Assembly: GCA_001604275.1 (NCBI GenBank)
Contig: LVBD01000047.1
Location: forward strand, 1-37,673
Length of the DNA stretch: 37,673 bases
Source: Spirochaetales bacterium Spiro_02
GTDB lineage: Bacteria > Spirochaetota > Spirochaetia > Sphaerochaetales > Sphaerochaetaceae
Reading direction: 5' to 3'
Below, piece by piece: positions 2,772 to 9,031 of the stretch (within the stretch, counting starts at the first letter, position 1; each line of letters starts with the position of its first letter). Made by a program: the position numbers and the translations under genes. A model generated the notes under the pieces. The model had not been told where the DNA came from. It searched no databases and saw only the letters and a list, made by a program, of their open reading frames with translations.

Positions 2772-2813
2772 TGGAGTATTTCATGGGATGTTCCCGGCAT
2801 GAGGTCCTCCCGA

Positions 2814-2842
2814 TTGCGCCGGAACGAAACTTCCTATAGACT
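2814..2842 (+). promoter_or_regulatory. Putative promoter of the diguanylate cyclase
   Basis: TTGCGC (2814-2819), 17 bp, TAGACT (2837-2842). TATAGA at 2835 overlaps it and would give a 15-bp spacer. The -10 hexamer TAGACT is identical to the one proposed for argH. The leader would be about 40 nt. Confidence 0.4.
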
Positions 2843-2888
2843 ATGGCAAGGCAGCCGATCTGCTTCTAGAAATACCGGACGGGCGGAG

Positions 2889-4580
2889 ATGGTGAAAGGT
2901 GACAGAGCGTATTTCATTGTTCTAGTATTGTTCGTCGTTGCTTGTGTCATCGGAGCCGTGACCGTGGCCTATGCGGGGCGCACGTTCCATCTCGATGATA
3001 CGCACGTCTCTATCGATGTTCCCCGTTCCTATTCCACCGGATGGTACGATGTCTTGACGGGCGCTTCCGTGACCGGCGACGCAGCTCCCCGGGAGACTTC
3101 CGATGGATGGAGCATCTCCATTTCGAATGTCATTCCTGCCGATGTCGAACCAGGAAGCGTTTTCTGCATGTATACGAACTGGCAATCTGTCCGTATATAT
3201 CTGGAAGGAAGGCAGTTCGCATCCTATGCAACGGACAATCGATCGTCTTTCGGCTCTCTGTTCGGCAAAGTCTGGCTGTTCGTCCCCTTGCCCGACGATG
3301 CCGGAGGAAAGGAGCTGACACTCGAAATCTCATCGAAGTACGAGGAAATCAAGGTCGGGCTTACCCGGATGTTCATCGGCGACAGAAACGCGATCGCTTT
3401 CGTGATGCTCCAGAAGAATCTCCTTGCGGTCCTGTTTTTCAGCCTGACGGGGCTCCTCGGTCTCCTCTGCCTGCTGGTCGCGCTGTGGCAGGTTCGTTCA
3501 CACAGACGATACGGACAAGGGAGCTTCTTCTTCCTCGGGCTGTTCTTCCTGCTGTCGTCCGTATGGGTGATTACCGATTCTTCAGTACTTCAGTTCGTGA
3601 GTGGAAATTCGGCGATCGGCAGCCTGATTTCGGTATTCGTGTTCATATTGCTGCCGCTTCCATTGCTCCTGTTCGCCCGTTCAGTCTATCGAAACCACGG
3701 AAAGCTGCTCGTCTGGTTCTGTTTCGCCGATCTCATGCTCTTTTTCACGATCTACATCCTGTATGTTTCGAACCTCGTGGATTTCTCGATTTGTCTGCCG
3801 TTTGTCCATGTGTTCATGATCCTGGTGTCGGCGGTTCTCATCGGTACCGGACTCCGCGAGAAGATACGTTTCAAGAACGACGCGGCGTTCGCCTTGGTGG
3901 TCGGATGCTCCATCCTGTCCGTGTCGATCGTCATCTCCTTGTGGATGATCTATTCCCAGATTTTCCAGTGGTATCTGATGATCGTCATGGCTGGGCTGTT
4001 CTGTTTTGAATTCGTTTTGATCGTGGATCTCGGCCGGCGGTTTCTGATGATGATGAACGAACAGGCGAAAGTCGAAGTCTACAAGAAACTGGCGTATTCC
4101 GATTTTCTGACGATGCTCGGAAATCGAGCCGCATTCGACGATGCATTGCGACTCGCCTACGCCTCTTCCCGTTCTGCCGGAGGACCGAGCGCGCTGCTGA
4201 TTTTCGATCTGAATGAGCTGAAGCGTTGGAACGACCAGGCCGGCCATTCGTATGGAGACCTGCTGCTCAGGGATGCCGCTACGCTGCTCCGTACCGTGTT
4301 CTCTCCTGCGGGGGAGAGCTTCCGCATCGGTGGCGACGAGTTCGCTGTGATTCTGCGCAACTGTACGCTGGAGAAGGCGAGCGGTCTGCTTGCGGAACTG
4401 GAGCGGAAGATGGATGAGTATCGAGCGAAGACCGGAAAGGAACTGGTCCTCGCCTATGGATTGGCCATGTCCCGCGACGAACACGGCCGGCCGTATGCGT
4501 CCTCCTTGGAGTGGTTCAAGGTCGCCGACGAACGGATGTATGCCGAGAAGCTCAAGACCAAGGCCATGACGAGAAGCTGA
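2889..4580 (+). CDS. Membrane diguanylate cyclase with 7TM-DISM-like sensor and GGDEF domain
   Basis: This 563-residue enzyme is expected to make cyclic di-GMP from two GTP. Residues 8-28 form a transmembrane anchor. Residues 30-170 form an extracytoplasmic beta-rich domain of the kind placed before 7TM-DISM receptors. Residues 175-385 hold about seven membrane helices, and residues 400-563 form the GGDEF domain. The active site is GGDEF at 481-485, preceded by FDLNELKRWND, which binds metal and GTP. The inhibitory RxxD site expected near residues 472-475 reads SPAG, so classical product inhibition is probably absent. An upstream extension to 2799 is open, but the ATG at 2889 lies just before the first hydrophobic helix and just after GGAG, at an unusually short distance. 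The ligand of the sensor domain is unknown. Confidence 0.9.
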   Translation: MVKGDRAYFIVLVLFVVACVIGAVTVAYAGRTFHLDDTHVSIDVPRSYSTGWYDVLTGASVTGDAAPRETSDGWSISISNVIPADVEPGSVFCMYTNWQSVRIYLEGRQFASYATDNRSSFGSLFGKVWLFVPLPDDAGGKELTLEISSKYEEIKVGLTRMFIGDRNAIAFVMLQKNLLAVLFFSLTGLLGLLCLLVALWQVRSHRRYGQGSFFFLGLFFLLSSVWVITDSSVLQFVSGNSAIGSLISVFVFILLPLPLLLFARSVYRNHGKLLVWFCFADLMLFFTIYILYVSNLVDFSICLPFVHVFMILVSAVLIGTGLREKIRFKNDAAFALVVGCSILSVSIVISLWMIYSQIFQWYLMIVMAGLFCFEFVLIVDLGRRFLMMMNEQAKVEVYKKLAYSDFLTMLGNRAAFDDALRLAYASSRSAGGPSALLIFDLNELKRWNDQAGHSYGDLLLRDAATLLRTVFSPAGESFRIGGDEFAVILRNCTLEKASGLLAELERKMDEYRAKTGKELVLAYGLAMSRDEHGRPYASSLEWFKVADERMYAEKLKTKAMTRS

Positions 4581-4624
4581 TCCTCGGCGATGTGGCGCTA
4601 CATGAGTCGCCCATAAGGGCCCTT

Positions 4625-5197
4625 TTATTTCCGGTCCGGCGTATAGCGTACCACCATATGTACGACAGCCGGTTGCGCCGATTCATTGGTGATGGTGTGC
4701 TCGACATCGCAATGGTACATCAGGAAATCCCCTTTTCTGATTTCTGCGGAATTGTCACCGGCGGTGACCTTGACCGTTCCTTTGATGACGGTCAGGAATT
4801 CCTGAGTTCCCGGAAAGTGCGGTTCCGACGGAAGCGATGCATGAGGTTCGAAGGTCAGCAGGTACAACTCCAGATCCTCTACCATCGAAAGCGGCGACAG
4901 AATCTGAATCGTGACGCCATTCTTCGTCTTCTCAAGTTTCGAAGTAACCTCTGATGCCGGATTGAGAGAGAATATCCGTTTCGGCTGCGTTTCCATGTCC
5001 AGCAGATCCTGCAGCTCCACGCCAAGTCCCTTTGCGATTTTCCAGACCGTCGCGACAGTCGGATTGACTTTGTCCGACTCGATTTGGCTGAGCATGGCTT
5101 TCGAAACGCCCGACCGTTCGGACAGGACGTTGAGAGTGAGCCCTCTCGCCCCCCTGAATTTCTGGATATTCTTGCCGATCATCGGAGGATTTTCCAT
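4625..5197 (-). CDS. XRE-family regulator with C-terminal cupin domain
   Basis: This 190-residue transcription factor has an N-terminal helix-turn-helix of the XRE type. The segment RSGVSKAMLSQIESDKVNPT is the typical recognition region. The C-terminal cupin barrel (about residues 110-190) probably senses a small ligand; HFPGTQEFLTVIKGT and MYHCDVEHTITN are cupin motifs 1 and 2. Regulators of this design often control amine or amino-acid catabolic genes next to them. It diverges from the threonine dehydrogenase operon, so threonine or a breakdown product is a reasonable ligand, but that is inference. Two ATGs are possible: 5201-5203 lies only 2 nt after GAGGAG, and 5195-5197 lies 8 nt after it and is preferred. 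Confidence 0.88.
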   Translation of the reverse strand: MENPPMIGKNIQKFRGARGLTLNVLSERSGVSKAMLSQIESDKVNPTVATVWKIAKGLGVELQDLLDMETQPKRIFSLNPASEVTSKLEKTKNGVTIQILSPLSMVEDLELYLLTFEPHASLPSEPHFPGTQEFLTVIKGTVKVTAGDNSAEIRKGDFLMYHCDVEHTITNESAQPAVVHMVVRYTPDRK

Positions 5198-5269
5198 CTT
5201 CATTGCTCCTCATCCATTGGACAACGATTCCATGGGGTTCGCCTTGAGAGCGAGCCTGTTATCAAATTT

Positions 5270-5304
5270 GTTTGACATATCAAACTATGTTCAATATACT
5301 AAAC
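5270..5304 (+). promoter_or_regulatory. Near-consensus promoter of tdh-kbl overlapped by two 16-bp palindromic operators
   Basis: TTGACA (5272-5277) is separated by 17 bp from TATACT (5295-5300). The palindrome GTTTGACATATCAAAC (5270-5285) covers the -35 box. A related, less perfect copy, GTTCAATATACTAAAC (5289-5304), covers the -10 box. Their centres are 19 bp apart, close to two helical turns. This is what a dimeric repressor binding side by side on one face would use, and the divergent XRE-cupin protein is the obvious candidate. Confidence 0.75.
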
Positions 5305-5402
5305 ATATACGATATTGTATTGTGGCTCATGCCGGTTGTCAAGGCAAGTTCTGGTGACGGGCCTTTGCGCCGGAATCCTGTTCCGCGATACAGGAGGGCT
5401 CT

Positions 5403-6407
5403 GTGAAGAATATCCTGGTCATCGGTTCCCTCGGACAGCTGGGGTCGGAGATCGCCTTGGGATTGCGCCGCGAATATGGCCGCGACCATGTCGTGCTCAC
5501 CGATATCCGAGATGATGTCAACCGTCCGTTGATCGAGGGTGGCCCGTTCTATCGGGTCGATTGCCGCGATGGGGATGCGATCGGACGCATCGTGAAAGAA
5601 CATCGCATCGATACGATCTATCATCTTGCCGCGTTGCTTTCCGCGTCGGCGGAGAAGCGCCCTCTTGAAGCTTGGAACATCAACATGGGTGGACTCGTCG
5701 TGACGTTGGAGATCGCCCGCGAATGCCGTTGCGCGGTATTCACGCCGTCTTCGATCGGTGCGTTCGGTCCGTCTACGCCCAAACGCTATACTCCTCAGGA
5801 TACGATCCAGCGGCCGACATCGATCTATGGCGTGAGCAAGGTGGCGGGAGAACTTCTGTGCGATTATTACCACCATAAATACGATGTCGACACCAGGGGA
5901 ATCCGGTTTCCGGGCATCATCAGCAATCTTACACCTCCGGGAGGAGGGACCACCGATTATGCCGTTGAAATCTACTATGCGGCGGTCGAGAAGCATCACT
6001 ACGATTGTTTCTTGCGCGGCGATACCTATCTGGACATGATCTATATGCCCGACGCCGTCCAAGCCGCGATTCAGTTGATGGAGGCAGATCCCGGCAAGCT
6101 ACGGCATCGGAATGCGTTCAATGTCGCTTCAATGAGTTTCTGCCCTGAGGAACAGGCCGCATACATCCGTACCCGCATCCCGGATTTTACCATCGGGTAC
6201 GACATCGATCCCGTGCGGCAGGCGATAGCGGATTCATGGCCGGATTGCCTTGAAGATTATGCCGCGAGGGTTGAATGGGGATGGTCGCCGAAATATGATC
6301 TGGCTTCCATGACCGAGGATATGATCGTTACGATCGAGCGCCGATGTTCTCAGTCTGCGCAAGGTCGTGAACAGGAGGTGCCGAATGTTGGGAAATGTTC
6401 GAAATGA
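5403..6407 (+). CDS. L-threonine 3-dehydrogenase, NAD-dependent epimerase type
   Basis: This 334-residue Rossmann-fold protein of the extended SDR (UDP-sugar epimerase-like) family would oxidise L-threonine to 2-amino-3-ketobutyrate with NAD+. The N-terminal NAD loop is GSLGQLGSEIA (residues 8-18). The catalytic Tyr142 and Lys146 lie in IYGVSK, with PSSIGAFGP just before. That segment and the SVYG/IYG arrangement match the epimerase-type threonine dehydrogenases rather than the zinc-dependent Tdh. The next gene encodes the enzyme using the product, which supports the assignment. The start is GTG at 5403, preceded by AGGAGGG. The gene overlaps the next by 23 bp. A general sugar epimerase is the main alternative, made unlikely by the neighbour. 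Confidence 0.88.
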   Translation: MKNILVIGSLGQLGSEIALGLRREYGRDHVVLTDIRDDVNRPLIEGGPFYRVDCRDGDAIGRIVKEHRIDTIYHLAALLSASAEKRPLEAWNINMGGLVVTLEIARECRCAVFTPSSIGAFGPSTPKRYTPQDTIQRPTSIYGVSKVAGELLCDYYHHKYDVDTRGIRFPGIISNLTPPGGGTTDYAVEIYYAAVEKHHYDCFLRGDTYLDMIYMPDAVQAAIQLMEADPGKLRHRNAFNVASMSFCPEEQAAYIRTRIPDFTIGYDIDPVRQAIADSWPDCLEDYAARVEWGWSPKYDLASMTEDMIVTIERRCSQSAQGREQEVPNVGKCSK

Positions 6408-7575
6408 ATTGCGTCAATTCCTTGATTCCCTCGAATCGCAAGGGCTGGCGAAACATGAGCGGGTGCTGACGACGAGGCAGGGTGCCCATATCGGAGTGCG
6501 CGACGACAGGACGGTGCTGAACTTCTGCGCGAACAACTACCTTGGACTAGCCGACGATCCCTCTGTCGTAACCGCCGCAAAACAGGCGATGGGCCAGTGG
6601 GGGTATGGTCTTGCTTCCGTGCGATTCATCTGTGGAACGCAGGACATCCATATGGAGCTGGAGAAACGGATCAGTGGTTTTTTAGGAACGGACGATACGA
6701 TCCTGTTCACTTCCTGCTTCGATGCGAATGGTGCGGTTTTCGAACCGTTGCTCGGGCAGGAGGATGCGGTGATCAGCGACGAACTGAATCATGCGTCGAT
6801 CATAGATGGAATCCGGTTGTGCAAGGCGCAGCGGTATCGGTACCGTCACAGCGATATGTCGGATCTTCGCCGGTGTCTGACCGAAGCCGGCGATGCCCGG
6901 CGACGGCTGATCGCCACCGACGGCGTATTCTCGATGGACGGCGATATCGCCCGGCTGGGTGATATCTGCGATCTCGCCGATGAGTTCGATGCCATGGTGA
7001 TGGTCGACGATTCCCATGCCACCGGGTATATCGGGGATACCGGAAGGGGGACTCCCGAGTATTGGGGTGTGGCCGACCGGGTGGATCTGGTCACCACGAC
7101 GTTCGGCAAAGCGTGCGGAGGGGCGAGCGGAGGCTGTATCAGCGGTCGTCGGGAGTTGATCGATCTCTATCGGCAGCGTGCGAGGCCGTACCTGTTCTCG
7201 AATACGGTGGCTCCGGCGATTTGCGGCGGAACGATCAAGGTCATTGACATGCTGGAGGCGGGAAATCCGTATCGGGCGCTGACGATCGAGAACGCGCGGT
7301 ATTTCCGAAGACGGATGGAACGCGCCGGATTCGATCTCGTCAAGGGTGAGACCGCCATCGTCCCCGTGATGCTGTACGACGAAGTGAAAGCGGTCGCCAT
7401 GGCGGATGCGTTGCTCGATGAAGGCGTATATGTAATCGGGTTCTGCTATCCCGTTGTTCCGAAAGGCAGGGCGAGGATCCGAGTCCAGCTATCGGCCGCC
7501 CATGCCAAGGAGGATATCGACTACGCCGTGGACGCGTTCGTGAAAGTCGGGAAAAAAATGAGGGTGATCTCCTAG
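6385..7575 (+). CDS. kbl: 2-amino-3-ketobutyrate CoA ligase (glycine C-acetyltransferase)
   Basis: This 396-residue PLP enzyme of the alpha-oxoamine synthase family cleaves 2-amino-3-ketobutyrate with CoA to glycine and acetyl-CoA, the second step of threonine breakdown. Lys242 in TFGKACGG should bind PLP. Asp208 and His211 in DDSHATG contact the cofactor, and FCANNYLGL and ELNHASIIDG are family signatures. Length matches the usual 395-400 residues. The ATG at 6385 has AGGAGG six bases upstream and lies inside the end of the dehydrogenase gene, so translation is probably coupled. The related 8-amino-7-oxononanoate synthase is less likely because of the operon partner. Confidence 0.93.
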   Translation: MLGNVRNELRQFLDSLESQGLAKHERVLTTRQGAHIGVRDDRTVLNFCANNYLGLADDPSVVTAAKQAMGQWGYGLASVRFICGTQDIHMELEKRISGFLGTDDTILFTSCFDANGAVFEPLLGQEDAVISDELNHASIIDGIRLCKAQRYRYRHSDMSDLRRCLTEAGDARRRLIATDGVFSMDGDIARLGDICDLADEFDAMVMVDDSHATGYIGDTGRGTPEYWGVADRVDLVTTTFGKACGGASGGCISGRRELIDLYRQRARPYLFSNTVAPAICGGTIKVIDMLEAGNPYRALTIENARYFRRRMERAGFDLVKGETAIVPVMLYDEVKAVAMADALLDEGVYVIGFCYPVVPKGRARIRVQLSAAHAKEDIDYAVDAFVKVGKKMRVIS

Positions 7576-7581
7576 CGTGCG

Positions 7582-7608
7582 AAAAAGGCCATCGACACGT
7601 CCACGGCC
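7582..7608 (-). terminator. Terminator of exonuclease I gene
   Basis: On the minus strand a hairpin with GGCC arms and an internal GAC/GTC pairing (7587-7608, two mismatches) is followed directly by five T (complement of 7582-7586). It sits in the short gap between the convergent kbl and sbcB genes. Confidence 0.5.
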
Positions 7609-7609
7609 G

Positions 7610-9031
7610 TTAGTTCGTATCCGAGAAAAGGCGTGAAGACAGATCCTCTCCATATGCTTTCAAGTCTGACAGAATCACTTTCTCCTGCGGGGTGGTCTCC
7701 ACGCTCTCAAGTTTCTCAGCTATCTTTCGCTTGAAAAAGGCGAGGTTCACCTGTACGTCTCCGGGAGGATTGAGAATTCTGTTGGCGGCGAACGAGCGCC
7801 ATTGTCTGGCTTCTGCGTCGGTCAGCGTTTCCGGCCAGTTCCTGCAGACATGTCTCCAGAGCATCTGCGGACATCGCTGATCCTCGAACTTCAGATTGAG
7901 CGTCAGTTTCTGTGCAGGATCGGCGTTGCGGATCAGCGTGAACTTGCGCTGGTCCGCATCCTGGAAGAAGCCGTCTGCATAGATTCTGAAATCTGGGTCG
8001 CGGACTTGTTCGTATTCATCGCGTTCCGCGGCATTGCGGAAAAAGACAGGGAGCATCGATTCCTTCGAAAGCCGCTCATAGCGGAACATGCAGGTGTCGT
8101 AGTCGATGCCGAGTTTGATGGCGAGGTTTCCGTTCAGTACCTTCAACGGACTGATGAACGGGCATTTGTTCATGGCTATCTTCAGAACGCCGGGGAGCCG
8201 CATGATGTCATCCTGATCGGCTCGCAGAAGCGTGGCGATGTCGTTTGACAGATCGAAGCAGATGATCGAATTCGGATTGTTCGGAACGGCGGTGATCGGC
8301 ATCACGAGACGGGAACACCCGTTAGGAGATGTGCACTGGGAGGAAGTATAGAGCACCGGTTCGCCGAACGGGACCTGGAGCAGTTCCTTGACCTTCGCTT
8401 TCTTTCGAAACTCGAGAAAATAGGAAAAGAGCTTCGGTTGCTGTTCCTTGATCAACTTCGCTACCGCGATCGTCGCATTGACATCGGACAGCGCGTCATG
8501 AGCGCCTTCGTGCGATATTCCGTTCGCGGCGGTAAGCTCGGTGAGCTTGAAGGTCGGATTGCCGTTTTCTTTTTTCGGTGGCCAGGCGATTCCCTCCGGG
8601 CGTAGATCGTACGCCGCCCGTACCAGATCGATGATATCCCATCTGCTGTTGCCGTTCGCCCATTCCCGCTTGTACGGATCGATGAAGTTTCTGTAGAGCG
8701 CGTTTCTGACGAATTCATCGTCGAAGCGAATCGAATTGAAGCCTGCCACGCAAGTTCCCGGTTTTGAGAATTCCTGGTTGATGCGATCGATGAAGTCGCT
8801 TTCGCACATGCCTTTCCGCTGTACTTCCTGTGGCGTGATCCCTGTGACGAGACAGGATAACGGGTCAGGGAGGTAATCGTCGCTCAGCTTGCAGTACAGC
8901 AATACCGGCGCTCCGATCGGAACAAGATTCCTGTCGGTCCGCTGTCCTGCGAACTGCGCGATCCTGTCGTAATGGGGATTCAGGCCGAAAGTCTCGAGGT
9001 CGTACCAGAAAAAAGTTTCATTAGCGTTCAT
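7610..9031 (-). CDS. sbcB: Exodeoxyribonuclease I
   Basis: This 473-residue enzyme degrades single-stranded DNA from the 3' end and acts in recombination and mismatch repair. The DEDDh exonuclease domain is clear: Asp11 and Glu13 in YDLETFG, Asp104/Asp105 in FNSIRFDDEF, and His178 to Asp183 in HDALSDVNAT. The C-terminal half contains the SH3-like and helical regions that are specific to ExoI, including QMLWRHVCRNWPE in minus-strand translation. Length is typical (about 475). No Shine-Dalgarno sequence is visible before the ATG. TACTAT lies six bases before it, so a leaderless or very short mRNA is possible, though the matching -35 box is poor. The gene is transcribed alone. Confidence 0.95.
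   Translation of the reverse strand: MNANETFFWYDLETFGLNPHYDRIAQFAGQRTDRNLVPIGAPVLLYCKLSDDYLPDPLSCLVTGITPQEVQRKGMCESDFIDRINQEFSKPGTCVAGFNSIRFDDEFVRNALYRNFIDPYKREWANGNSRWDIIDLVRAAYDLRPEGIAWPPKKENGNPTFKLTELTAANGISHEGAHDALSDVNATIAVAKLIKEQQPKLFSYFLEFRKKAKVKELLQVPFGEPVLYTSSQCTSPNGCSRLVMPITAVPNNPNSIICFDLSNDIATLLRADQDDIMRLPGVLKIAMNKCPFISPLKVLNGNLAIKLGIDYDTCMFRYERLSKESMLPVFFRNAAERDEYEQVRDPDFRIYADGFFQDADQRKFTLIRNADPAQKLTLNLKFEDQRCPQMLWRHVCRNWPETLTDAEARQWRSFAANRILNPPGDVQVNLAFFKRKIAEKLESVETTPQEKVILSDLKAYGEDLSSRLFSDTN

Follow-up and report, generated by a model that had tools for sequence, protein, structure and literature searches.

A window of 37.7 kb (37,673 nucleotides, the whole stretch of DNA analysed) from a Spirochaetales bacterium of the family Sphaerochaetaceae contains the tdh and kbl genes, a divergent gene for an XRE-cupin protein and, between them, two adjacent palindromes. 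It is very probable that this protein is a local repressor of tdh-kbl that would act through the paired palindromes as operators, and that in certain genera its control also reaches threonine synthesis. The palindromes are predicted to be operators and are poorly explained as chance occurrences or as mere promoter elements; the strongest evidence is comparative. The kind of regulator is already known, as exemplified by PsdR and DbuR, and its regulon appears to be undescribed.

The operator pair at the tdh promoter

The original prediction placed two 16-bp palindromes, 19 bp apart from centre to centre, over the -35 and -10 boxes of a TTGACA-N17-TATACT promoter, and this was borne out in its coordinates (Table 1) as well as by the conservation of the pair in relatives. 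Both palindromes are imperfect, with symmetric pairs at 7/8 positions in site 1 and 6/8 in site 2. No other pair with the 19-bp spacing occurs across the window. When the 199-bp intergenic region was dinucleotide-shuffled 2000 times, a 19-bp pair was never recovered, and a pair at any spacing of 16-24 bp appeared in about 0.3% of the shuffles. Site 2 agrees with GTTYANTATANTRAAC at 16/16 positions and is the single exact match in the 2.6-Mb genome. On a matrix derived from tdh sites it scores 24.4, vs a weak 5.3 for site 1, which fits poorly because it is tied to TTGACA. No RNA family match was found within 4400-7700. By the usual promoter spacing, the tdh start point would lie near 5307.

Table 1. 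Features of the tdh-kbl locus and of the divergent regulator gene in the window.
Feature	Position	Strand	Sequence or domain	Remarks
XRE-cupin regulator, 192 aa	4625..5203	-	HTH_3 PF01381 (1.9e-14) and Cupin_2 PF07883 (1e-11)	
Operator site 1 (predicted)	5270..5285	+	GTTTGACATATCAAAC	Encloses tdh -35 box; partner to site 2
tdh promoter	5272..5300	+	TTGACA 5272-5277, N17, TATACT 5295-5300	Boxes conserved in relatives
Operator site 2 (predicted)	5289..5304	+	GTTCAATATACTAAAC; family consensus GTTCANTATANTGAAC	Encloses tdh -10 box
Regulator promoter	5314..5342	-	TTGACA 5342-5337, N17, TACAAT 5319-5314	Overlaps tdh promoter
tdh, epimerase-type (SDR) L-threonine 3-dehydrogenase	5403..6407	+	PF01370	
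kbl, glycine C-acetyltransferase	6367..7575	+	NF005394 615 bits (cut-off 460), TIGR01822 606 bits (cut-off 493)	

Conservation of the sites and linkage with the regulator

Absence of the palindromes upstream of tdh in relatives that keep the regulator had been named as one observation that would count against the original prediction, and the prediction withstood this check. When 50 distinct tdh upstream regions of relatives were compared and a site was accepted at 14/16 or more matches to GTTYANTATANTRAAC, such a site was found in all 50, and a partner lay exactly 19 bp upstream of it in 36. In L058 and L060, tdh is preceded by arrays of three and four operators, respectively, at a pitch of 19-20 bp. 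Across 23 non-redundant promoters, the information content is 1.7-2.0 bits in operator columns outside the -35 and -10 hexamers (AA of site 1, and GTT.A at the 5' end and AAC at the 3' end of site 2), which are conserved as strongly as the hexamers, vs about 0-1.1 bits for the columns flanking the operator region. Therefore, the promoter alone is an insufficient explanation of the conserved sequence.

This bears on the possibility that no regulator binds the palindromes and that they arise from the overlap of two strong sigma-70 promoters, one directed rightward into tdh and the other leftward into the regulator gene. Both promoters look real and are conserved, and the TATA-rich -10 core is itself near-palindromic. 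Nevertheless, the conservation outside the boxes, the retention of the motif before other genes in Lentisphaerota and its occurrence before thrA and asd at differing gene-relative positions, almost only in regulator-bearing genomes (see below), make this explanation highly improbable.

The relatives of this genome that bear the regulator are Sphaerochaetaceae of the Spirochaetota. Among 139 genomes of the family, 39 carry both regulator and tdh, 3 the regulator only, 1 tdh only and 96 neither (Fisher p 9e-30, without correction for phylogeny). The regulator is thus found in 39/40 genomes with tdh; in the sole exception, G104, tdh lies at a contig edge, and the regulator probably falls in an assembly gap. 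At most Spirochaetota loci the regulator gene is divergent from tdh. Together with the co-occurrence, this supports the proposal that the divergent XRE-cupin protein is the natural partner of the palindromes. In four genomes with tdh and the regulator apart (L128, L106/L129, L132 and L133), it is tdh that retains the double operator.

The association reaches beyond the phylum. The Tdh of Escherichia coli is of the MDR type. In Lentisphaerota (L068, L070 and L071), the same regulator and operators are found before a Tdh of this zinc-type family (NF003808, 578 bits; cut-off 380), which is unrelated to the epimerase-type enzyme. Regulator and operator are retained while the fold of Tdh changes from SDR (Spirochaetota) to MDR (Lentisphaerota), which suggests that the pathway rather than the enzyme is sensed. 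In Victivallales (L074-L077 and L080), a relative of the regulator is divergent from a NAAT/MarC-type transporter gene, and the same paired operators precede the transporter.

It could still be that a different regulator binds the palindromes and that the XRE-cupin gene is a mere neighbour, given that binding by the XRE-cupin protein is predicted from sequence. The near-perfect co-occurrence with tdh, the adjacency kept in both Spirochaetota and Lentisphaerota although their Tdh types are unrelated and the thrA sites retained in two genomes with the regulator and without tdh (G079 and G080) speak against it, and we consider it scarcely credible.

Further sites before thrA and asd

The regulon was scanned genome-wide by pattern matching with two mismatches allowed. 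In this genome the other matches fall mostly within coding regions. The exception is GTTTGACATATTGAAC (G000:C5:43079-43094; L116:1501-1516), a site-1-like operator candidate with 2 mismatches, 14 bp before thrA, which encodes a bifunctional aspartate kinase/homoserine dehydrogenase. Since about 1.5 equal matches are expected by chance genome-wide, the weight of the site here comes chiefly from where it lies and from its being conserved in other genomes. It sits directly after an rpmB-side terminator. The thrA genes of relatives have an additional GTTCA half-site about 12 bp upstream.

Conservation was assessed with a matrix that used only tdh sites and left this genome out. Matrix sites occur 11-39 bp before thrA in 18/29 regulator-bearing genomes vs 0/10 regulator-less ones (p 0.005), and 105-145 bp before asd in 23/30 vs 1/8 (p 0.0006), the one regulator-less case being G104; both p values are uncorrected for shared ancestry. 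The regulator-bearing genomes G079 and G080, in which no tdh was detected, keep the thrA site, and G080 also keeps an asd site. In the matrix scan, thrA and asd sites were absent from several regulator-bearing genera (G027, G082 and G121-G124). Clear thrA or asd sites are largely missing from genera g6, g9, g14, g19 and g20, with a weak thrA site in G021. A TATAAT box is found about 20 bp downstream of the asd site; inspection by eye did not locate the thrA promoter. The description of the protein as a regulator of the threonine-degradation operon is incomplete, as the same operator precedes thrA and asd.

Another palindrome, TGTTAATATAATAACA, is conserved beside the operator, about 80-120 bp before asd, in L246-L268. 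It was considered as a second asd operator and dropped, as related elements precede asd in the regulator-less genomes L271 and L275. It is probably part of the asd promoter or the site of another regulator.

The XRE-cupin protein and control of its own gene

The protein combines an N-terminal Cro/CI-type HTH domain with a C-terminal cupin domain, both above the family cut-offs, and its predicted structure has five helices and a beta barrel. As expected of an XRE-cupin regulator, a palindromic site lies within the core promoter of the adjacent metabolic gene, tdh. Translation may start at the second Met, at 5197. The nearest solved full-length relative is 1Y9Q (profile E 5.9e-27; Foldseek 7e-18), which is also the best fold match. 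This Vibrio cholerae XRE-cupin protein is listed as a dimer with Zn (PMC2684688), and it shares about 27% identity with the window regulator. The pocket residues S126, H129, E135, D166 and H169 are invariant in an alignment of 40 homologues and would be suited to binding a metal or ligand. Identity with PuuR was rejected (NF007408, 48.6 bits vs a cut-off of 211 bits).

The regulator gene has its own TTGACA-N17/18-TACAAT promoter, which is conserved at almost every linked locus of the Sphaerochaetaceae and was not found at the unlinked tdh promoters (L128, L106, L132 and L133). By the usual spacing its start point would also lie near 5307, coincident with that of tdh. With a shared start point, the two promoters would point towards and overlap each other, and the regulator leader would contain both operators. 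The suggested self-control is thus plausible at linked loci, because the conserved regulator promoter starts at site 2, and a bound repressor would probably also damp its own synthesis. However, no operator was seen upstream of unlinked regulator genes, so self-control is not universal.

Proposed mechanism

We infer DNA binding, repression, cooperativity, autocontrol and an effector as follows. XRE-cupin dimers, side by side on sites spaced by 19 bp, would cover the -35 and -10 boxes of tdh-kbl and exclude RNA polymerase. The fixed spacing, and the three or four sites in L058 and L060, favour cooperative binding. As the operators lie just downstream of the regulator start point, the bound repressor could hinder initiation at its own promoter. 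A small molecule of threonine or glycine metabolism in the cupin pocket may alter DNA binding. Through the thrA site here, and asd in relatives, the regulator may act on the aspartate-threonine-glycine node beyond degradation alone. The simplest interpretation is that dimers bound next to each other occlude the core promoter, which agrees with characterized XRE-cupins (PMC7901475) and with DbuR (PMC12724383).

The sites before thrA and asd complicate release by threonine. If all targets were repressed jointly, release by threonine would raise threonine's own synthesis, which is odd, and a glycine-type signal fits better. We tentatively consider, at rather low probability, that one XRE-cupin protein represses asd, thrA and tdh-kbl; in these spirochaetes Tdh-Kbl would then form the final part of a route that supplies glycine and acetyl-CoA from aspartate, signalled by glycine or a derivative, rather than plain threonine breakdown. 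Alternatively, the protein may bind the sites as an activator, or repress tdh while activating thrA and asd. Such opposite control would be metabolically sensible with threonine as effector, and the position of the asd site upstream of a TATAAT box, like the unplaced thrA promoter, counts for this reading. Nevertheless, either variant seems unlikely, as both tdh boxes are buried in the operators, which fits occlusion, and characterized XRE-cupins are repressors (PMC7901475).

Relation to known regulators

Characterized XRE-cupins repress from core promoters via palindromes (PMC7901475, PMC12724383). For instance, DbuR of Pseudomonas putida is divergent from an amino-acid catabolic operon, as here, and represses it from a palindrome over the -10 box with a 44-bp footprint. 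Unlike the present system, DbuR has a single 20-bp palindrome of other sequence, serves a D-branched-chain amino acid operon and has no known sites at biosynthetic genes (PMC12724383). The P. aeruginosa XRE-cupins PsdR, PauR, ErfA and others are likewise local repressors, with palindromic sites in core promoters, and mostly serve one or two neighbouring metabolic targets; their operators and pathways are different, and none is described for tdh-kbl (PMC7901475).

Other regulators are comparable by their targets. ThrR of Bacillus subtilis regulates threonine synthesis genes as a repressor (Rosenberg 2016, cited in PMC8226366); the targets named there are hom-thrC-thrB, with no mention of tdh-kbl, and the comparison is one of targets, not of protein family. 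Transcriptional control of kbl-tdh in E. coli is exerted by Lrp (RegulonDB target list in PMC2374795), which, in contrast, is a global regulator. A literature search, mostly open-access, found neither such a regulator on tdh-kbl nor an operator shared by thrA, asd and tdh. For this regulator family the locus supplies a defined operator with its consensus, and a regulon, in a phylum with few described amino-acid regulators, and would tie threonine synthesis and degradation to one protein. In addition, paired or arrayed 19-bp sites, together with two promoters that face each other and start at one point, would make a compact switch.

The enzymes and surrounding genes

Assignment of tdh to the SDR-type L-threonine 3-dehydrogenases follows from its close similarity to such enzymes, which are its best solved relatives (7ol1 at 5.9e-117), and from its kbl partner. 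The likely start of kbl is the ATG at 6385 behind AGGAGG, overlapping tdh. Tdh-Kbl as the only glycine source was ruled out, since serC and glyA, which offer alternative serine/glycine routes, are both present in this genome.

In L143, L144 and L145, tdh-kbl is lost or moved, and the regulator adjoins other housekeeping-looking genes. The gene upstream of the regulator in L143 and L144 resembles, by eye, the sbcB gene that in the window (7610-9031) flanks kbl; this arrangement would fit an insertion or a loss of tdh-kbl in between sbcB and the regulator gene. On its other side in the window, the regulator gene adjoins a gene for a GGDEF diguanylate cyclase (2799-4580, + strand).
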